Part shown: positions 869 to 17,234 of the stretch, in pieces
Numbering within the stretch: position 1 is the first letter of the stretch
Layout of the letters: every line of letters starts with the position of its first letter
IMG/VR virus record: IMGVR_UViG_3300021964_009451
Coordinates: 1 to 21,221 of that record
Direction: 5' to 3' (one strand)
Length of the DNA: 21,221 nt
Source: a virus
Made by a program: the position numbers and the translations under genes
The notes under the pieces: generated by a model
What the model saw: only the letters and a program-made list of their open reading frames with translations
What the model was told of the DNA's origin: nothing
The model's database searches: none

Positions 869-1236
869 ATTCTTTCCCAAATATTATCTGAAGTGTAGCG
901 GAAACTACCTTTAAATTCCATTGTCCATTCATGTGGCGCAATTAAACTTAAAAATAGTTTGTCAGTAGGTCCTACGTATAAGTGATATATTTTTCCTACT
1001 ACTGGAATAAATTTATATTCGGCTCCATAAACTAATTGACTATCTTCAACTTTTTGTACTAATTTAAAATATTCTTCTTTAAGTTCTTCAAACTTAGTTT
1101 CAAAATAATTTGTTGCATTAGCACCTCTATCTTTTTTATCTTTTATTACATCTGGAATAGTAAATGCCGGCGCACCTACATTGGTAGGGTAGGGCATACT
1201 TGCCGGATTTGCAACGACATTGTCTGGCTTTTTCAT
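865..1236 (-). CDS. DUF2452-like conserved protein of unknown function
   Basis: This 123-residue soluble protein has no signal peptide or membrane segment. It opens with a KPDNVVANPASMPYPTNVGAP-type segment, followed by a charged helical stretch (about residues 32-65). It ends in a beta-rich part with YKFIPVVGKIYHLY, LSLIAPHEW and a final TSDNIWERI. This order (N-terminal KP-N-V motif, helix, F-P-G-YYLY, then P-EW) resembles the DUF2452 family, known from bacteria and T4-like phages without an assigned function. I match it from memory of the pattern, not from a search. It sits between the aldolase and dCMP deaminase genes with ATGA overlaps on both sides, so it is probably translated with them. 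No activity can be inferred. Confidence 0.72.
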   Translation of the reverse strand: MKKPDNVVANPASMPYPTNVGAPAFTIPDVIKDKKDRGANATNYFETKFEELKEEYFKLVQKVEDSQLVYGAEYKFIPVVGKIYHLYVGPTDKLFLSLIAPHEWTMEFKGSFRYTSDNIWERI

Positions 1237-1880
1237 ACACCGCTTGCTAATACTATCTTACAAATATGTTCTAATCGTTCAATGTGTTCAAACGTTCTCC
1301 ACGGGCTAGTATCAATAGCAACTACACCGTGCCCTTTAATGCCAATAATATCGTGTGCAATATTACCATCGCTATCTACTCCAAGTCTTGAGATAGTTTC
1401 ATCTGCAAGTTCTTGACTGATAGGTGCAACGTCTGGCACATTAGGTGCTACCTTTGTGTAGCGTCCTAGTTCTGGAAAGTCCTGCACTAGTTTATCTAGT
1501 TCAATGCCTTTATGCATCGCCGCTACAATATAAGTAGGATGGAAATGCATAACGACACGAACATCATCTTTGTGCTGACCCATTTCTTTTTGCAAACCAA
1601 AGTGTAGAGGAATCTCTCCACTAGGTTTTAGATTAGCACTAATGTCTGTATATTCCATTTCCTCCCAACTATGCATAAGTTTAGGAGGTTGGTCATAGAA
1701 ACCTTTGTTGATCTTAATTTTTTTAAACAACTCTGGTTGCATTGTTTGCTTGCGAATGCCGCTCGGAGTAATATAAAAGTGGTCTCTATCGTGATGGCGG
1801 ATACTTACATTGCCATCACGGCTGGTAATCCAGTTGCGACCGTAAGCCGCAACCATTGTTTCACAAATTGTTTCTAACAC
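1233..1880 (-). CDS. Class II aldolase/adducin-family sugar-phosphate enzyme
   Basis: This 215-residue protein matches the zinc-dependent class II aldolase (fuculose-phosphate aldolase/AraD/MtnB) fold over its full length. RDGNVSIR lies at residues 21-28 and YITPSGI at 36-42. PSGEIPLH at 86-93 includes the likely catalytic Glu89. Zinc ligands are His112 and His114 (HFHP) and His184 (KGHG). The C-terminal EHIERLEHICK helix is also typical. Family members cleave or epimerise small sugar phosphates, or dehydrate methylthioribulose-phosphate; the substrate here cannot be read from sequence. The start is GTG at 1880, overlapping the ThyX TAG stop (TAGTG), with AAAGGA six bases upstream. All key residues are present, so it should be active, most likely as an auxiliary metabolic gene taken from a host. 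Confidence 0.88.
   Translation of the reverse strand: MLETICETMVAAYGRNWITSRDGNVSIRHHDRDHFYITPSGIRKQTMQPELFKKIKINKGFYDQPPKLMHSWEEMEYTDISANLKPSGEIPLHFGLQKEMGQHKDDVRVVMHFHPTYIVAAMHKGIELDKLVQDFPELGRYTKVAPNVPDVAPISQELADETISRLGVDSDGNIAHDIIGIKGHGVVAIDTSPWRTFEHIERLEHICKIVLASGV
1790..1820. repeat. 9-bp perfect inverted repeat inside the aldolase gene
   Basis: CGTGATGGC at 1790-1798 pairs exactly with GCCATCACG at 1812-1820 across a 13-nt loop. The - strand codes here for the start of the conserved RDGNVSIR motif and the following HHDRD. It is about 60-90 nt after the GTG start and could fold in the mRNA near the ribosome entry site. It could also be a by-product of codons for conserved residues. Confidence 0.55.
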
Positions 1881-3214: not shown

Positions 3215-3571
3215 TTAATCGCCTTTTCCTGGATTTTCACTAAAGTGTTCTGCATACTTATTAGGAATGCCGTCCCATTCTTTTGCATCTGGCGGAACAT
3301 CGTCTTTCCGCATACGTGTAATATTAGGCCAAACCAAAGAATACTTTCTATTAATCTCAAACCAATCTGTATTAGGTTGATCAAGATCTAGATCGTATTC
3401 ATACTCAATAGCAAATGCAGGACATTCGCCAACACAAACGCCGCAATCAATACATTCAATTGGATTGATTACGAGCATATTTTCTCCTTCGTAGAAACAG
3501 TCAACTGGACAAACTTCTACACAATCCATGTGTTTACATTTGATACAGTTTTCAGTTACAATATACGCCAT
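3215..3571 (-). CDS. fdxA: 7Fe ferredoxin (3Fe-4S plus 4Fe-4S), FdxA type
   Basis: This 118-residue ferredoxin contains nine cysteines: 9, 12, 17, 21, 25, 40, 43, 46 and 50. The spacing equals that of Azotobacter-type ferredoxin I shifted by one residue. By analogy Cys9, 17 and 50 hold the 3Fe-4S cluster and Cys21, 40, 43 and 46 the 4Fe-4S cluster. The C-terminal extension ([16 protein letters not shown], then [12 protein letters not shown]) is also that of the FdxA family. The gene is therefore a full-length bacterial electron carrier, not a plant-type 2Fe-2S photosynthetic ferredoxin. Its ATG overlaps the gp44 stop (TAATG), with a GAGG ribosome site inside the gp44 3' end. Its neighbours include an Fe(II) oxygenase and the flavoenzyme ThyX, but the redox partner is unknown. 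Confidence 0.95.
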
Positions 3572-4485
3572 TAAAGCCTCGCTAATCTAATTAATGTTGC
3601 CGCTAGGTTGATTTCAGCATCAACAACTAACGTATGGTCTACAAGACCTTGTTTAATGATAAGAACAGCAGAGTCTTGCTTCTCTTCCTCACCAAACAGC
3701 TCAATATTATCGTAAAGCCAACGATAAATTTCTTCCATTTCTTCTGTTCTAACAGAGCCGCACAACAATTTACGTGCTTCTTGAATCTTGCCTGCTTTGA
3801 ACAATTCTACCATATCTAGTTTCCAGTCTTGCTCACCACTGTCACCTTCATGCGGAGCAAGCAATGAACCATCCTGGCTATTCATTTGTACCATGTTAAT
3901 GCACTTACGCAAGTCTGGGTAGGTTGCTTTTACATAAGTGTCTAGAGTGTCCAGGTCTGGCGTAATCCCTTCCGTAATAAGAATCTCAGCCACGCGAGCT
4001 GTAAATTCAGTCTGATCGATCTTGGCAATGTGGAAGCCTTGACAACGACTGTGTAGAGCTGGAATAATCCTGTTAGGGTAATTACAAGTAAGTATAAACC
4101 TAGCAGTTGTATGATATTCTTCCATAACTCCACGAAGTGCAGCCTGTGCGTTAGGTGATAAGTAATCTGCCTCATCTAATAGTACTACCTTAAAGTCTCC
4201 AAACGGAATCATTTGGACAAAGTTTACAATCTTATCACGAACATCATCTACTGAGTTTGTTCGCGATGCGTTAATCTCTAGTATGTCTAAGTCATTAACA
4301 TCTAGTTCGTTAAACAACAGTTTAGCAAGTGTAGTCTTACCAATACCTGCGTTGCCGCTAAACAACAAGTGCGGGATTGTTTTGTCTTTGATCCACGTTT
4401 TAACTTGATTACGTTGTGCGTCATCTCTAAACACATATCCATCTATCGTCTTAGGACGATATTTTTCTACCCATAATTCTTTCAT
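3571..4485 (-). CDS. 44: Sliding clamp loader ATPase subunit, gp44-like
   Basis: This 304-residue AAA+ ATPase of the RFC-small/gp44 type opens the sliding clamp and places it on primer ends for the phage DNA polymerase. It starts with [15 protein letters not shown], the RFC box II. Walker A GNAGIGKT is at 44-51 and Walker B LLDEAD at 102-107. Sensor 1 is around Asn135 (LTCNYPNRI), and the Ser-Arg-Cys arginine-finger motif is at 146-148. Length is close to T4 gp44 (about 320). The ATG overlaps the stop of the 55-aa gene (ATGA), with an AGGAAAAG site. In T4 gene 62, the loader's partner subunit, follows directly. Here the next gene is the ferredoxin, so gp62 must lie elsewhere. Confidence 0.95.
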
Positions 4486-8366: not shown

Positions 8367-11300
8367 TTACACGTTAAACTGATAATTTGCCATTAACAAA
8401 TACTTTTGATCACTACCATCAAATGTACTATCTATAATAAATCTATCAATATCCATATTAATTCCGCTAAAGTCTAACTGTTTGTATTCAATTGCTCTAG
8501 CAATAATTTCTGCTGTTCCTGGTTTACAATAACACAACGGAATAGCAGGTGTATAACCTAATTCTGGATAATTATCCTTTTGTGGAGTACGCATCCAAAG
8601 AGGTAAAAATTCTCTGTTTGTTAGTCCAATATCTTTAATATTGTCTCTCATGTTTTTCAAGTTTGAAATATATCTGGTTCTGTCATATTCTTGACTGCCT
8701 TCAACAGCGTCAGAGTCAACACGTAATTCGTTACTATCAATGCTACGCAAATACCATGGGCTTGCATCTTCTGTATTTTGAATTTGTATATCAGACGGTG
8801 CTAGTTCAATTATCTCGCCGTTACGTAGTGTAACACTTACAATAGGCTCGTTAATTATAACATCGTTTCCTCTTGCAGATCCTAATGCTCCTCTAAGTTC
8901 AACGGTGTATTGTGATATATTTGATGAAGTTGTAATAATTGCACCTGAACGTAAAACTATTCGTACTACTGCATAAAAATTACGCTCGTCACCTGTGTCA
9001 GACTGATTGGTAATTAACTTAGCAGCATTTTTAATTTTGATTTGTTTTGCTGTAGACTGTCCTTTTTTAGCACCTGCAGGATCAATTACATCAAGATAAA
9101 CAACTTCGTAAACAACATCATTAGTGCCAGGAAGTTTAGCAACCGCAGTTCTTACTTTACCTATCTTATAAGAACGTCTTTTATGATTTTTAGCCATTGC
9201 AGCCACGTACTGATTTGTTTCTTTGGTTTCAATGCCTGCATATACTAAAAATTGTGGGTACAGTTGAAGTCCATATGTAGGATCATTTGGTCTATAAAGA
9301 TACTTTGTTAAGAATACATCAGGATCGTTAATTAATTCGTTATAACGATCACGATCTTGTTGACGCAACATTGGTCTAGCATACAAGTTACTATAACGAG
9401 TGTCTTCACTATCATCAACAATAATATAAAACTCACGTTCTTCAACACTTAGTTTATATTGGTCTTGTACACTAACTGTAAATCTATATGATCTATCAAA
9501 GGTAGCATCAAATGTTGTAGTTACACCGTCAAATAATGTAACACCTTTACGTTTTTCGTTACTAAACTTTTTGATGGTACCGTGTATAGTTCCATCAAAC
9601 GCCATAGTTAAACCTGGTGGAAGTGATCCGCTAGTAATTTTAAATAATAGATAAGAATTTGGTACATTAGAAACTGCATCAATGTTTAATCTATAATCGT
9701 AATTTGTAATTAAGGTTCCTAAATTAGAATTTGAATTCCAAATTAATCTAGAATCAACATCTCCTATAGTCTTAACTATAAAAGTTTTGACACTACTAAC
9801 ACCTTCAAGATATATATCGTCAGAGAAACTAAATGTATAGTTAGTTCCTTGTGATACTACGTCATTGGTATATAGTTCAACTAATGTTAACGTAGTATTT
9901 GAACCAGCATATATTGTTTGTGTAATAGGCGTTGTAAAAGTAATATACTCAAACTCGGAAGGATTATATTTTACAAGTTCACTTAGGTTGTAATTGTTAT
10001 CTGACATCCAAACATTTAAAGAAGATTTATCAATTAAAGATAAATCATACCCTGTAACTTCCTCCCAGTATGTATCAACATCTCCTGCAAATAAAGAAGA
10101 AGATGTATGTACTGTTTTTGAACGATACACTCTAGTATTATCATCTACACTATCTATAGTATATGTGTTAGATCCCCATGAAATATCTAAACCAATAAGT
10201 TGAGATAAAGTTTCAGGACCTAATTTCCTAATAGAAATTGTTGTTTCACTTGGCAGTCCGTTCTCCCAAGCAGTTACAATAACATTTTCACCTAAGTATA
10301 ATACATCGTATGTACTTGATTCTGTTTTATCTACAGAAGTAATAGTGAATAAGTCATTTCCAATAGTTAGTTTACGACCTACTAGTAGTGAAGTATCTAA
10401 ACTTTTAATAACTTTTATAGAATGCGAATTAATCGGTGCATCTTCATATACTTCTAATGTTAAATCTTGTTTTTCGTTAACAACACCATATCTTGTTGCA
10501 CGAACACTAAATTTATATTCTTGTGTTGTACTTGGTTGATATGGTACACTGCCAGCAATTTCTCCTGTAGTAGGATCTAATTTTACACCAGGAGGTAAAA
10601 CACTTACACTTCCGTCATCATTTACAGATTCTAAACTGTAAACTATTTGTCCTAATAACTCGTTAGTATCAAGAACATCTAGCATAAGTGTAACGTAGTT
10701 CTTTGCTCTACGGTATCCTAAATCTCGCGGAGTTAACCATACTGGAGTTCTAATATGTGTTACATCAGCAGTAAAAACACCATTTCCTGTTTTCATTAAT
10801 GTTGTATCAGAACGCACAAAATCGTCACCAATAACAAAAATGCTAAATTGACGTTTAGCAGTAGTGTCGCCGTCGGTAACTGATACTACAAATTTATATT
10901 GTCTGTTTAATTTTTTAGGCGATCTAGTTGGCTCACTATGATCATACGGAACTGTGTCATAGAAGAAACTATCAAAACCATTTTGCATATATTGGCCAAA
11001 GTCGTATGGTATAGAGTCATAGCCTACTTTGTCAAAGTTTTGCGGATCTAAGTATCTTTCTAAAGAAAGTAATGGTTCAACTATACCAACTAAACGTCCA
11101 TCTGTTGTTAGTTGTATACCCGGTGGCAATTCGCCGTCGCCCTTATCGATAAAAAATTCTAATGTTTGTCCTACAGGAACATCTAAATCTTCAACCACAA
11201 GTTGATAGTCTATCAAAGAACTATCTAAAATATATATTTGATCTCGCTGCCCTATAGGCAAATCACCTGCAGGAGTAACCCAAGTTGGTGCATCTGGACC

Positions 11301-11564
11301 CTGAACTTCAATAATAAATGTTCTATCGCTTATTTTGTTATCGTATGTTGCTCTTAATACAAAGGTATAGTCTGTATTTCTTACAACTTCGTAAGGAGTT
11401 CCAATAATGTTAGTACCACTTAACAACATACCTGCAGGGAGCGATCCGCTTATTAATTTAACAGAGGCAGACGGTTCAGAGAGAGGTAACGCAACAGAAG
11501 TTTCTACCCCTTCTTCTAAAGTAGTTAATTTTGTTCCTGTAGATAGAGTCCAGTAGTTTGCCAT
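8367..11564 (-). CDS. 1065-aa virion protein with He_PIG/Ig-like repeats (fibre or baseplate)
   Basis: Four copies of the putative-Ig (He_PIG) signature are visible. They are LPAGMLLSG-TNIIGTP near residue 42, LPPGIQLTTDGRLVG near 146, LPPGVKLDPTTGEIAG near 323 and LPPGLTMAFDGTIHG near 648. Each is followed by a strand like YKFSVRAT or YRFTVSVQD, giving domains at roughly 1-90, 95-245, 275-375 and 600-720. Residues 180-208 hold a small internal repeat (GYDSIPYD / GFDSFFYDTVPYD). The C-terminal 345 residues are a different domain, ending in FSGINMDIDRFIIDSTFDG and LLMANYQFNV, a tail I associate with marine T4-like structural proteins. No signal peptide is present. He_PIG folds are common in surface adhesins, so host contact or a fibre shaft is likely. 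Confidence 0.83.
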   Translation of the reverse strand: MANYWTLSTGTKLTTLEEGVETSVALPLSEPSASVKLISGSLPAGMLLSGTNIIGTPYEVVRNTDYTFVLRATYDNKISDRTFIIEVQGPDAPTWVTPAGDLPIGQRDQIYILDSSLIDYQLVVEDLDVPVGQTLEFFIDKGDGELPPGIQLTTDGRLVGIVEPLLSLERYLDPQNFDKVGYDSIPYDFGQYMQNGFDSFFYDTVPYDHSEPTRSPKKLNRQYKFVVSVTDGDTTAKRQFSIFVIGDDFVRSDTTLMKTGNGVFTADVTHIRTPVWLTPRDLGYRRAKNYVTLMLDVLDTNELLGQIVYSLESVNDDGSVSVLPPGVKLDPTTGEIAGSVPYQPSTTQEYKFSVRATRYGVVNEKQDLTLEVYEDAPINSHSIKVIKSLDTSLLVGRKLTIGNDLFTITSVDKTESSTYDVLYLGENVIVTAWENGLPSETTISIRKLGPETLSQLIGLDISWGSNTYTIDSVDDNTRVYRSKTVHTSSSLFAGDVDTYWEEVTGYDLSLIDKSSLNVWMSDNNYNLSELVKYNPSEFEYITFTTPITQTIYAGSNTTLTLVELYTNDVVSQGTNYTFSFSDDIYLEGVSSVKTFIVKTIGDVDSRLIWNSNSNLGTLITNYDYRLNIDAVSNVPNSYLLFKITSGSLPPGLTMAFDGTIHGTIKKFSNEKRKGVTLFDGVTTTFDATFDRSYRFTVSVQDQYKLSVEEREFYIIVDDSEDTRYSNLYARPMLRQQDRDRYNELINDPDVFLTKYLYRPNDPTYGLQLYPQFLVYAGIETKETNQYVAAMAKNHKRRSYKIGKVRTAVAKLPGTNDVVYEVVYLDVIDPAGAKKGQSTAKQIKIKNAAKLITNQSDTGDERNFYAVVRIVLRSGAIITTSSNISQYTVELRGALGSARGNDVIINEPIVSVTLRNGEIIELAPSDIQIQNTEDASPWYLRSIDSNELRVDSDAVEGSQEYDRTRYISNLKNMRDNIKDIGLTNREFLPLWMRTPQKDNYPELGYTPAIPLCYCKPGTAEIIARAIEYKQLDFSGINMDIDRFIIDSTFDGSDQKYLLMANYQFNV

Positions 11565-12308: not shown

Positions 12309-12319
12309 CTATATTTATC
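12309..12319 (-). promoter_or_regulatory. Late-promoter-like motif, GATAAATATAG (copy 1)
   Basis: The - strand 11-mer GATAAATATAG contains the T4-late core ATAAATA at 12318-12312, 17 nt before the ATG at 12294. The TAA stop codon of the protease gene is part of the motif. The identical 11-mer occurs at 17251-17261 in front of another fibre gene, with the same TAGGAA ribosome-site context. Confidence 0.65.
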
Positions 12320-14354
12320 TTAGTTTCAGTGTCACACCACTACGGAACCTAATATTGCCTCGTGAAAGTGTAGTAACAGCAGTTGAGTCTGGAGTATCTT
12401 GATCTGGTGGTAATTCGTTTGATATTGTGATATTACCTCGATACAAAACATTTCCTACGCCACCCTCTAAACTAGTGTAATCATACCAGTTTGATGATGT
12501 TGCACTAGTTGATTCGGTGCCGTAATACATTTGAGAACTAGGAACAATATCTAAAGTTGACAACCAAGATCTAATATCTCGCCAAGTCCATCCTCTATTG
12601 TGTTCTAAAACTGTAGCAATAAATCCAGCCGCAACAGGGCAAGCAGCACTAGTACCGCCAAATGCACAATCATATGCTATGCCGCCATTATAAGTAAATC
12701 CTGGATAAGTTGCAGGATGTCTTCCTAAATTAGAATAACTGTGATTAGCAGCAATTGTGCCGTCGGCAGGTGCATAAATGTCTATATCGTTGCCTCGATC
12801 ACTATAATTTACTTTTCGTTCTCTAATTGGACTTGTTATTTGAGCATCATCTAACGCACCAATTTGTATCACAGGGTGTATACGAATGCCCGTATCAGGA
12901 TCAAAATATTTTCCAAGTTGTTGTGGAAATCCTCTACGATTTGTTGTACCTGTAGTTTCAAGACCAAATTCATAATATCTTGAATCTTCAAGAGTTGTAC
13001 CTGAACCAGCAGCAATGTAATTATTAAAATCTGGATGATCTGATGAAACTAGTTTCTGATTAGAGTTGCCAGCCGCTACAATCATAATAACACCTGCATC
13101 TAACATTTCTTCACCGGCTTGCACCATTGAGTTGTATTTCATTTCACTCTTCCAACGTCCGCCGTCACCAGTTAGACCCATATGTGCTATAAATGCAGGT
13201 TCGGATAACTGTCCACCATACTGCACAGAACTTCCACGGAAATGATAATAATCACCATTAGAACCTTTAGTTGCACGATACCCCCAACTGTTTGATGTTA
13301 TTGTTGGATTTTTATTTTGCCAATACTCGTTGATTGGTTTCATTTGATGGAATAGTTTTACAAGATCAAAAGACGGTTCAATATCTGTTCCAAAATAGTT
13401 AAGATTTTGTAAAAACCATTTATTAGCATTGTATGCCCAACCTAGAGATCTTCCATATGTTAATGAAGCACAAGCAGTACCGTGTTGTCCATATGTTGAT
13501 CTAGCAGCATTAGAACCGTTGTTTCTTGCTCGTGTGTAACCACTTGATATTAGATTTACTGTTCCATAACTGTTAAATTGTGTAGACCTATTAGCAGTAA
13601 ATGCCCACCATCTTAACGCTTCTAGTTCGTCTGGAACAATTGTACCGTCCCATCGTGTTATTAATCTGTTGGAAGGATCTGCGTCAAACCAGTCTGGATC
13701 AATATAATATGGAGCATCTAATAAAAGATCTAGCAACATACAAGTACCGTCACCCGGTAATGGATTGCCGCCAATAAAGTTAGCAGGAGTAGGAGTATTA
13801 GTATTGCTTTGAAATTCTGGATGTCCAAACCAACATCCATCGTCGGTTACTATAACATCAATATTTTCACCAGTTCCCTGCAATTGAATATTTCGATTAA
13901 GTATTGCTGTAGAGTTATACGCATTTGAACTCCATGGATCTCGTTGACTCGTTGTACGTAATAACTGATATCCTGCTCTATTATAGTCAGCCGCACCAGG
14001 AGTAGTTGGTAATGATGACACTTGTTTATAGTTTTTAACTGAAGTGTTATACCTATTAATCACTGCTGGACTAGCAGAAACAAGTTGATCTGGCGGCGCC
14101 TTAAATTGCTCAGGATATGACGGCAAATCTAAATGAATAAATTTAATTGAAGGATGATTCTTTAAGTCTTCTGCTTCTTCGTCTGATAATAAGAAAGTTC
14201 CACGAGTTGGACTATGTACTTTATCATCTTCGCACGACACTAGTCTATCCGGAATGCCATCATTATTAGTATCTTCAGTTGTTAATAGTTCATAAATTTC
14301 AGGCCATTGTTCTGCTGTATGTGTCCCTAGGGTATACTTTTTTAATTCTGACAT
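12315..14354 (-). CDS. Subtilisin-like serine protease (peptidase S8) in the fibre cluster
   Basis: This 679-residue subtilase has a complete catalytic set. Asp171 is in IDVIVTDDGCWFGHPEF, His291 in YGQHGTACAS and Ser569 in FGGTSAACPVAAG, with the oxyanion Asn430 in VAAGNS. NSWGYR at 355-360 is the usual substrate-binding strand. Residues 50-80 (RGTFLLSDEEAEDL, NHPSIKFIHLD) resemble an inhibitor-I9-type propeptide, suggesting a zymogen. There is no secretion signal. The C-terminal 50 residues contain two RGNI segments and may be a virion-binding tail. Large inserts between Asp and His (about 180-285) are unlike secreted subtilisins. It sits between two fibre genes with no gap to the upstream one (3 nt), so it is probably made late. 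It could be a virion component cutting host surface proteins, or it could process fibres. Confidence 0.93.
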   Translation of the reverse strand: MSELKKYTLGTHTAEQWPEIYELLTTEDTNNDGIPDRLVSCEDDKVHSPTRGTFLLSDEEAEDLKNHPSIKFIHLDLPSYPEQFKAPPDQLVSASPAVINRYNTSVKNYKQVSSLPTTPGAADYNRAGYQLLRTTSQRDPWSSNAYNSTAILNRNIQLQGTGENIDVIVTDDGCWFGHPEFQSNTNTPTPANFIGGNPLPGDGTCMLLDLLLDAPYYIDPDWFDADPSNRLITRWDGTIVPDELEALRWWAFTANRSTQFNSYGTVNLISSGYTRARNNGSNAARSTYGQHGTACASLTYGRSLGWAYNANKWFLQNLNYFGTDIEPSFDLVKLFHQMKPINEYWQNKNPTITSNSWGYRATKGSNGDYYHFRGSSVQYGGQLSEPAFIAHMGLTGDGGRWKSEMKYNSMVQAGEEMLDAGVIMIVAAGNSNQKLVSSDHPDFNNYIAAGSGTTLEDSRYYEFGLETTGTTNRRGFPQQLGKYFDPDTGIRIHPVIQIGALDDAQITSPIRERKVNYSDRGNDIDIYAPADGTIAANHSYSNLGRHPATYPGFTYNGGIAYDCAFGGTSAACPVAAGFIATVLEHNRGWTWRDIRSWLSTLDIVPSSQMYYGTESTSATSSNWYDYTSLEGGVGNVLYRGNITISNELPPDQDTPDSTAVTTLSRGNIRFRSGVTLKLR

Positions 14355-14357
14355 AGA

Positions 14358-17234
14358 TTAATAATCCCATACTTGGAAGTTTGCTCTCTCAGTTGTAGGA
14401 GTACCACTTGATTGTACTTCTACTCTAAATCCTGTTGTTGTTTTATTTGAAATAAAGACTTCAATGTTTGTAAAGCGATCTGCGTGTGCATTAATAGCAT
14501 ATGTATCTGTTGCTAGTTCGTGGTCAAATGTAATATCATATATTCCTGAAGAAACATCAGTGAATGTGTATCCAAATCCTTGCCCCGAAACTGTTGGAGT
14601 ACCTACTGCTGCATTATCAACACCAAGAGAGCCCATGCATACAGGGCTAACTATACGATTCCATTTTCCTTTTGCATAATTTTCAATGTTCTTTGAATCT
14701 GTGTTGAATATTGTGTCACCTTCTTCAACGACAATACTGTCTTTTTCTAGGTCTGTATAATCTGCTAATTGGAGTGGACTGCTTGTGATTTTAACTCTTT
14801 GTTCAGCAGTAAATAACAAATCAGTTTGTGATAACAGTTCTGGAGCAGTACCCGAACCTGACTCAGCAGTTATTTCGCCTGTGATTGTTAAGTTGCCATC
14901 AACAATAACATTTCCATCACCTACATAAGTTGCTAATATAATATCTTGATCTGAATAAATTTCTCTGTTACTACCAGTTAGAATAATTCTAACATGTGCA
15001 GTTAGATCACTATCTACAGTTACATCTGAATTGAATGTTGTTTGTGGCACAACATTAATTCCTGAACTGTCATCAGTGTCAATAACACTAGCGTCAAGAA
15101 CAAAGTTTCCAACCGCTGCAACTTCACCCGGTACCCATGTATTTGTTGCTGCACTCCAAATTAACGCTTGTCCAGCAATTGGTGCTGTTGTTGTAGTATC
15201 AACGTCATTTAGTGCGTTAACAGAAGCATTGTTTAGGTCTGTAGTAAAGTCTGTAGTTCCATAACCTGCTGCTTGTGTCCATTGACTACCGTTATATTTT
15301 AATACTTGTCCTGCAACTGGACTTGTAATTGTCACATCACTTAATCCGTCAAGTTGCACACCTTGGTCAATCCAGTTAGAACCGTCCCAGCGTAGGAACG
15401 CACCATTTGTTGGACTAGTTATATTAGTATCATTTAAGTCACTTAAATCTAAACTAATAGAACCTGGATCAATGGTAATACCTCCTAAGTCGCCCTCAAT
15501 AGTTAAATCACCTTTAATAACAGTTGTAACAGTACTAGAACCAATTTCAATTCCTGTCATTGCTGCACTATTACCTAAAATTAATTTTTGGCCTGTGTTA
15601 CCATTAAGTTGTAAATCAAATCCTGGACCAGATGCTATGTTACCTTTTACGCGAAGATCCGCATCTAGTAAAACATACTCACCTCTAAATTGTGCCACAC
15701 TAGTCATTACACCATTTTTAGCAACGGCTATAGATAACTGGCCATCTTCTGAACCTGATGTAATATCAAGCACTCGTGTATTAAGTTGAGCGATATTATA
15801 GTTTGCTAAACTAGTTGTACTTGTTCTAAATAATAGTTGTGGACCACGATCGTTGTTTGCAGGGCTTTCTCTATATGCACCTAAATCTAATGCAGGAGCA
15901 GTTGCGCCTCCAAATGATGTCATGTTTATTATAGAACGAGCAAATTTATTGTCGCCTGGACCGTAGCCTACTTCAAAGTTTTTGTATAGCGGAATAGTTG
16001 AATAGTTTTCACCAATTTCTAAGCCGCCTATCATAATAGCATTTTCTGTGCTATTACCAAAATTAGTAATAGTATCTAAATCTGCATCAGTTATGCCAAA
16101 CCCTGCAATAGTTGTTGGAACACCATTCAATACACTGTAAGGTATAACGCTATTAACACCGTCAACAAGTAGTGTAGAATCATCACCAAACACAGAACCT
16201 GTTACATCACCTGTTCTTGGCTCGTTAGCAAGTAAATATCCTGCTGTACTGTGATCCCCCCAACTGTACGCTGTATCCCAATTAGCACTATTATTTGTAG
16301 TAGCAGTAAAGTTTCCAGCACCATCTGATATTACAATACCAATTGCACCAAAGTCCGCAACTGATAGTACATTTGACCCATTTAATGTTGCTGAGTTAGT
16401 TTCAATAGGACCAACAATCTTTCCAGCAACAGCGTCAACCATCTGTGTTGAATCATCTGCATAAACAGATCCAACATGATCGCCACGGAATGTGTCACCT
16501 GGTTGTACAGCACTGTCTGCTAATGCGCCTTGTGCGCTAGTTGCAGCATCAGTAATACCGTATCCTACTAGTGTAGTTGGTTTGCTCGTTAATGAAGCAA
16601 AGTCGCCTGCGGTAGCAACAGCAGACAAACTTGCTATCGTAGCAAAAGGTGTCAAGTCAGGTGGCGTATAGGTAAAGACACCAAAGCCATTGTTATATGT
16701 TAGTGTTCCTGTACCCGAAGCAGCATTTTGTGTTACACTTAGATCAGTTAAGTTTAAGTTACCTGTAGCAGCATTAACACTAACAAACGCAAAGTTATTA
16801 GCACCGTCTGTTGCTAATACATATCCTGAAGGACCGTCTGTAATATTTAGATCAGTAAGTGTTGTGGTACCTGCTTGTAATGCATCAGTAATACCATAAC
16901 CTGCTAGTGTAGTTGGCTTACTTGTTAACGAAGCAAAGTCGCCTGGGAACAATGCAGGTAAATTTGATAAATCGTTATAGTCTCTAGAAAAGAACAAATT
17001 GGCAGCATCTGTTAAATGTGATACGTCTGATGGTATATTAGGTTTGTCTGTTAAATCGTTGTAACTACCTACGTTTGACGTAATTGCTACACCATTAACA
17101 GTTAGTGTTTGTGTCTCAATAGATACAGCATTTACTATGCTACTGTTTTCTAAATTTAAATCATCTCCACTCGGTAACTCTTTTATCTTGTTACCGTCTG
17201 TTGTGTCAATGATTAGTGGAAATCTATTTGCCAT
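14358..17234 (-). CDS. 958-aa repeat-rich tail fibre-like protein
   Basis: Several families of internal repeats mark a long fibre. FASLTSKPTTLAGYGITDA-type units start near residues 100, 212 and 366; the third copy is YSVLNGVPTTIAGFGITDA. Two units like GSVYADDSTQMVDAV and GSVFGDDSTLLVDGV lie near 256 and 347. Three later units have the form LSDxxITSPxxGQxLxYNGSxW. Such repeats are typical of phage fibres and build trimeric beta shafts. The last 110 residues (from about LEKDSIVVEEGDTIF to NFQVWDY) form a separate, likely receptor-side or capping domain. The start MANRFPLIIDTTDGNKIKELP differs from the INIG module. A late-type GATAAATATAG motif and a TAGGAA ribosome site precede the ATG. No enzyme motif is seen. 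Confidence 0.86.
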   Translation of the reverse strand: MANRFPLIIDTTDGNKIKELPSGDDLNLENSSIVNAVSIETQTLTVNGVAITSNVGSYNDLTDKPNIPSDVSHLTDAANLFFSRDYNDLSNLPALFPGDFASLTSKPTTLAGYGITDALQAGTTTLTDLNITDGPSGYVLATDGANNFAFVSVNAATGNLNLTDLSVTQNAASGTGTLTYNNGFGVFTYTPPDLTPFATIASLSAVATAGDFASLTSKPTTLVGYGITDAATSAQGALADSAVQPGDTFRGDHVGSVYADDSTQMVDAVAGKIVGPIETNSATLNGSNVLSVADFGAIGIVISDGAGNFTATTNNSANWDTAYSWGDHSTAGYLLANEPRTGDVTGSVFGDDSTLLVDGVNSVIPYSVLNGVPTTIAGFGITDADLDTITNFGNSTENAIMIGGLEIGENYSTIPLYKNFEVGYGPGDNKFARSIINMTSFGGATAPALDLGAYRESPANNDRGPQLLFRTSTTSLANYNIAQLNTRVLDITSGSEDGQLSIAVAKNGVMTSVAQFRGEYVLLDADLRVKGNIASGPGFDLQLNGNTGQKLILGNSAAMTGIEIGSSTVTTVIKGDLTIEGDLGGITIDPGSISLDLSDLNDTNITSPTNGAFLRWDGSNWIDQGVQLDGLSDVTITSPVAGQVLKYNGSQWTQAAGYGTTDFTTDLNNASVNALNDVDTTTTAPIAGQALIWSAATNTWVPGEVAAVGNFVLDASVIDTDDSSGINVVPQTTFNSDVTVDSDLTAHVRIILTGSNREIYSDQDIILATYVGDGNVIVDGNLTITGEITAESGSGTAPELLSQTDLLFTAEQRVKITSSPLQLADYTDLEKDSIVVEEGDTIFNTDSKNIENYAKGKWNRIVSPVCMGSLGVDNAAVGTPTVSGQGFGYTFTDVSSGIYDITFDHELATDTYAINAHADRFTNIEVFISNKTTTGFRVEVQSSGTPTTERANFQVWDY
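16546..16609. repeat. 64-bp imperfect direct repeat, copy 1
   Basis: This 64-bp stretch matches 16882-16945 at 57 of 64 positions by eye. It encodes the FASLTSKPTT(L)xGYGITDA unit of the 958-aa fibre. Most differences are at third codon positions, as expected for a duplicated coding unit kept by selection. Confidence 0.8.
16882..16945. repeat. 64-bp imperfect direct repeat, copy 2
   Basis: This is the partner of 16546-16609, 336 bp away, in the same frame of the 958-aa fibre gene. It could act as a recombination point that changes fibre length in steps of 112 residues. Confidence 0.8.

Follow-up and report, generated by a model that had tools for sequence, protein, structure and literature searches.

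An S8 subtilase gene as an optional cassette between fibre and gp10-N-like genes in phage tail clusters

The window analysed here is the whole 21,221-nucleotide stretch of IMG/VR virus record IMGVR_UViG_3300021964_009451 (positions 1 to 21,221). It carries a real and intact S8 subtilase gene, and this gene is an optional cassette, whose one fixed slot lies between a tail-fibre gene and a gene for a gp9/10-N-like protein (gp10-N). On balance we favour the reading that its product enters the tail tip as a latent pro-protease, which would digest a host surface protein at adsorption, the nature of the substrate being what we infer. The genes of the cluster that matter for this reading are the following.

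14358-17234, minus strand: upstream tail-fibre gene, 958 aa (phrog_9729 tail fiber protein, E=1.7e-18)
12315-14354, minus strand: S8 subtilase gene, complete, 679 aa
11599-12294, minus strand: downstream gp9/10-N-like protein, 231 aa, 20 nt from the S8 gene and the other border of the slot (phrog_677 baseplate wedge tail fiber connector, E=6.5e-8)
8367-11564, minus strand: He_PIG Ig-domain fibre-like protein, 1065 aa (PF05345)

The S8 gene is a complete ORF with an ATG start and a single ATG-to-stop frame, and stops abound in the plus strand reading of the same interval. Its product matches Pfam PF00082 (Peptidase_S8) over residues 163-598 (E=1.1e-19, 71.3 bits against a cut-off of 21.8) and PHROG 9158 (phrog_9158, an uncharacterised phage family) with E=3.3e-96; the intact frame and the two matches bear out an earlier note that had proposed a complete subtilisin-like protease at this position. 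Chance is excluded as the origin of the ORF because it is conserved and under purifying selection. From pairs at 75-98% identity we estimated a dN/dS of about 0.10 for both prosegment and catalytic domain; the value for the C-terminal part is 0.25. We saw no hydrophobic signal sequence when the N-terminus of the protein (MSELKKYTLGTHTAEQW...) was inspected by eye, in agreement with the same note.

The S8 gene lies 3 nt from the fibre gene, as had been noted, and this arrangement recurs. A homologue of the window's fibre genes is found upstream in 43 of 53 non-redundant IMG/VR S8 loci, mostly across gaps of less than 12 nt, so that the search for S8 genes beside fibre genes of other phages, proposed earlier, gave a positive answer; two of the 53 non-redundant S8 ORFs are preceded in tandem by another S8 gene. 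Since the 53 loci had been picked by S8 similarity, we performed the reverse test on loci fetched with the fibre alone, taking in 21 non-redundant loci in which both the fibre and the following gp10-N gene are visible. An S8 gene stands between the two in 15 of these (14 found by BLAST and one, L102, by Pfam), and the fibre directly adjoins gp10-N, without S8, in the other 6. The S8 genes of the slot encode proteins of about 500 to 1170 residues, many with long C-terminal extensions, some of which give weak Ig-like or other beta-domain matches. The slot, which may be filled or empty behind the same fibre, is thus a cassette site for subtilases.

Two side observations concern slot occupancy. 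In L045 (9001-12610) and L078 (4707-8310) two different S8 subfamilies stand in tandem behind the same fibre. The slot of L102 was considered as a case filled by a non-S8 gene, and this was rejected: its 602-aa gene (9037-10845) is a very divergent S8 with the motif segment TLEVG, in which Glu stands at the position expected for the catalytic Asp (by eye).

The cassette distribution bears on the main rival explanation, according to which the S8 protein would cleave the adjacent fibre, or some other protein of the tail, while the particle is being assembled, and copies in the finished particle would be remnants. The close and conserved association with gp10-N and a single type of fibre would fit such a maturation protease, as would the synthesis of a signal-less protein in the cytoplasm, the site of fibre assembly. 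However, the 6 of 21 loci with an empty slot show that this fibre does not need S8, other S8 members adjoin different fibres, and the lectin and esterase fusions described below fit surface substrates better. We therefore regard fibre maturation as unlikely, if still the explanation most worth setting against ours.

The protein itself can be divided as follows, the prosegment, junction and domain limits being predicted.

14121-14354, minus strand: prosegment, residues 1-78, I9-like predicted fold
14061-14120, minus strand: probable prosegment/mature junction, residues 79-98
12429-14060, minus strand: catalytic domain, residues 99-642, folded like proteinase K/aqualysin but with larger loops (Z 28-29 in VIA-align against 5wsl, 4dzt, 2b6n and 2prk)
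13842-13844, minus strand: catalytic Asp171
13482-13484, minus strand: catalytic His291
13065-13067, minus strand: oxyanion Asn430
12648-12650, minus strand: catalytic Ser569 (in GTSAACP)
12318-12428, minus strand: residues 643-679, hypervariable linker and strand-like C-tail of about 15 residues (RGNIRFRSGVTLKLR), from alignment frequencies and sequences

The Asp-His-Ser triad and the oxyanion Asn occur in the order of the S8 family. The earlier note had named D171, H291, N430 and S569 correctly: all four are invariant in 42 of 42 sequences (alignment A2), and they are also kept in the complete divergent S8 members found through the fibre gene. An AlphaFold2 model built with 41 IMG/VR relatives has a mean pLDDT of 88 and a pTM of 0.82, and its residues 99-642 align with keratinase 5wsl, aqualysin 4dzt and the Serratia enzyme 2b6n at Z of about 29 and 22-23% identity; rmsd to proteinase K-like enzymes is 2.5-2.9 over about 270 residues. 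The best Foldseek PDB matches include pro-subtilisin E (3whi) and ProN-Tk-SP (3afg), both entire pro-enzymes. By profile, residue order and predicted subtilisin fold, the window protein belongs to peptidase family S8. It resembles the secreted, I9 prosegment-bearing enzymes proteinase K, aqualysin and subtilisin E in fold, catalytic residues and placement of the prosegment, and differs from them in lacking a signal peptide, in having larger loops that add about 270 residues, in its phage tail locus and in its C-terminal tail.

The subtilase fold could instead serve mainly as a tail scaffold or binding domain, with proteolysis minor. The virion context would allow this, and so would the divergent L102 protein, with its apparent Glu in place of the catalytic Asp. 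The invariance of the catalytic residues in 42/42 sequences and their conservation in the complete proteins of a further set, which was found independently, argue against it, as do the strong purifying selection and the retention of the prosegment, and we consider a structural or adhesive use very unlikely.

The suggestion that the N-terminus is an I9-like prosegment stood at the level of predicted structure and failed at that of sequence. Residues 1-78 of the model follow a strand-helix-strand-strand-helix-strand order, and in residues 1-96 modelled alone the strands and helices again succeed each other as in a propeptide, at modest confidence (pLDDT 72). Most top fold matches of residues 1-96 are subtilisin-type propeptides or pro-enzymes (Z 7.0-7.6, which is moderate), and several subtilisin propeptide matches have a Foldseek probability of 0.96-0.99. 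Pfam Inhibitor_I9 has no match in the window prosegment at an E limit of 10, so the I9 claim rests on fold; I9-type propeptide folds resemble other small alpha/beta folds, which counts against the assignment. The relative in phage S-SCSM1 has a weak Inhibitor_I9 sequence match (0.051). The proteinase-K-type mature N-terminus aligns from about residue 99, and model confidence is very low (pLDDT <50) at residues 86-92, where a processing site is expected; self-cleavage would probably fall within residues 79-98.

At the other end, structure prediction did not return the virion-binding C-terminal domain that had been envisaged, since residues 643-679 form only the hypervariable linker and the short strand-like tail. 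Mean top-residue frequency is 0.19 in the linker and 0.36 in the C-tail at 96% occupancy. A C-tail pattern was present in 33 of the 83 S8 ORFs but in none of the 923 other ORFs in these loci, which rules out an attachment tag common to other proteins of the locus. The C-tail of the S8 protein itself possibly has a docking role.

Placement in the tail is suggested by what S8 proteins are fused to and by the company their genes keep. He_PIG Ig domains are fused to S8 in two of the loci, L064 and L086, and the Ig-domain protein of the window contains the same domain type. BLAST found no match between the window protein and the L064, L086 and L087 fusions, so this link holds at the level of domain type only. 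In the S-SCSM1 relative a Laminin_G_3 lectin domain is fused to S8, and in phage S-TIM54 S8 is fused to a BD-FAE type alpha/beta-hydrolase and Ig domains. The latter protein (L003, 7995-14417) is a 2140-aa virion structural protein that holds an I9-like N-terminus, the esterase-like alpha/beta hydrolase (GHSAG), S8 and Ig domains in one chain. Three S8 members have an inserted domain shortly N-terminal of the active-site serine, and the same domain occurs in a Stenotrophomonas phage protein whose annotation is tail fiber.

Among named phages, P-SSM2, S-WAM2 and S-RSM4 have a homologous S8 protein among their tail/fibre genes, and S-SSM6a/S-SSM7 have one in the gene order of the window, although the window protein is at most about 43% identical to any named record. 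In Atu_ph07, S-CREM1, S-RSM4, S-T4 and ACG-2014j the S8 gene likewise has fibre, baseplate, tail or structural genes next to it or close by. This contradicts the possibility that homologues occur mainly in non-structural contexts, which would have spoken against a tail protease: fibre, tail or structural genes surround or adjoin the annotated relatives that we examined.

The best match to the window S8 in a viral structure library is the S-SCSM1 protein (QFG06492, annotated as a baseplate wedge subunit). It resembles the window protein in its N-terminal S8 part and its position within a fibre cluster, and differs in its length of 1411 aa, its added lectin part and an identity of about 25% over the S8 region. 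Its GenBank record tags this protein "(virion protein)", which is an annotation. Mass spectrometry detected 45 proteins in CsCl-purified S-SCSM1 virions (PMC9602691); we counted 48 such tags in the record, against the 45 reported, and several obvious structural genes have no tag. Taking the tag as detection, the S-SCSM1 relative is likely a virion protein.

A tail or virion location of the S8 protein is thus well supported by the slot, the fibre-type domain fusions and the S-SCSM1 tag, as judged from sequence and annotation. Of the proposal that the virion carries the protease, the tail association has held up, and the dedicated C-terminal binding domain has not. The same evidence bears on a late intracellular protease that would digest host proteins or help lysis and be merely encoded in the fibre cluster. 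Such an enzyme would, like this one, have no secretion signal, but the Ig and lectin fusions, the inserted domain common to a tail fiber protein, the tagged S-SCSM1 member and the consistent structural context make it quite improbable.

In the tail-tip reading that we favour, the S8 protein would be made in the infected cell alongside the neighbouring fibre as a signal-less pro-enzyme. A signal-less subtilase in the cytoplasm must be held inactive, and the conserved prosegment is the obvious device: it would act as folding helper and inhibitor and keep the protease latent. The pro-enzyme would join the tail fibre or baseplate of the new particle and process itself near residues 79-98; we place it at the tail tip because its gene is tightly coupled to the fibre and gp10-N genes and because relatives are fused to adhesive domains. 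When the new particle adsorbs in its turn, the mature enzyme would digest a host surface protein (outer-membrane, S-layer-like or giant surface proteins) and so work like a depolymerase with a protein target. Latency, self-processing, docking and substrate are all features that we infer. We found no site in the window for the exact TATAAATA late-promoter motif, which we counted against this explanation.

The family is large and appears to be essentially a phage family. There are at least 562 IMG/VR relatives, and tblastn with the window S8 matched 47 records, all from cyanophages or marine single-cell viruses. Among Synechococcus phage records of the same collection, 376 have clamp-loader matches and 37 have the S8 gene, so the gene is accessory. 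In a scan of 84,980 bacterial and archaeal genomes, family-specific patterns matched just four marine MAG contigs, which is why this S8 subfamily looks to us essentially phage-borne; no fibre or gp10-N neighbours were found on those four within the stretches examined. The contigs that carry the S8 relatives L095-L098 were assigned to marine bacterial MAGs and are possibly mis-binned phage contigs.

The remaining genes of the window give some indication of the phage. The clamp loader (3571-4485, minus strand) is closest to those of the jumbo phages PA5oct (55%) and Atu_ph07 (47%), and ThyX (1880-2557) shares 65% identity with its counterpart in OM43 phage Melnitz; to judge from these affinities, the phage is a T4-like myovirus whose host is uncertain and need not be a cyanobacterium. 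A 4Fe-4S type ferredoxin gene with a DUF3470 tail (3215-3571, minus strand) adjoins the clamp loader, and a class II aldolase/adducin-like gene (1233-1880, minus strand; PF00596, E=4.5e-26) lies in the nucleotide-metabolism part. A free-standing 173-aa piece matching a DNA polymerase III alpha domain (PF07733; 6985-7506, minus strand) is probably a real short protein and not debris, since a small gene like it (16669-17199) lies close to the same cluster in L045.

S8 genes are already listed in cyanophage genomes: the record of PSSM2_297 (P-SSM2, T4-GC 292) carries a PF00082 note, and the text of Sullivan 2010 (PMC3037559) lists an S8 peptidase, T4-GC518, for P-HM1/P-HM2. The records and literature examined assign these genes no function, and in the literature searched we found no study of a phage-tail subtilase and no description of the slot, its cassette behaviour or its function.

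The phage tail enzymes that are known to aid attachment mostly attack polysaccharides or the cell wall, and tail-spike and tail-fibre depolymerases are polysaccharide lyases and hydrolases. The S8 protein resembles these depolymerases as an optional, exchangeable enzyme of the fibre region, and differs in that it would cut protein and is a separate protein next to the fibre. Tentatively, and with somewhat less assurance than for the window protein, we propose a class of T4-like marine phages with an exchangeable "protein depolymerase" slot between a fibre gene and a gp10-like connector gene, which would hold latent subtilases of various kinds whose task is to remove proteins from the host surface. 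Such enzymes would be the proteolytic counterpart of capsule depolymerases, and if tail-borne subtilases are widespread, protein too would be a barrier that ocean phages encounter. This would raise the question of how a broad protease stays silent during assembly. Because isolated laboratory phages, among them S-SSM7, S-WAM2, Sf-FS3 and P-SSM2, carry the S8 gene, the idea is directly testable, and the gene would offer a testable host-range determinant for phages of Synechococcus and Prochlorococcus.
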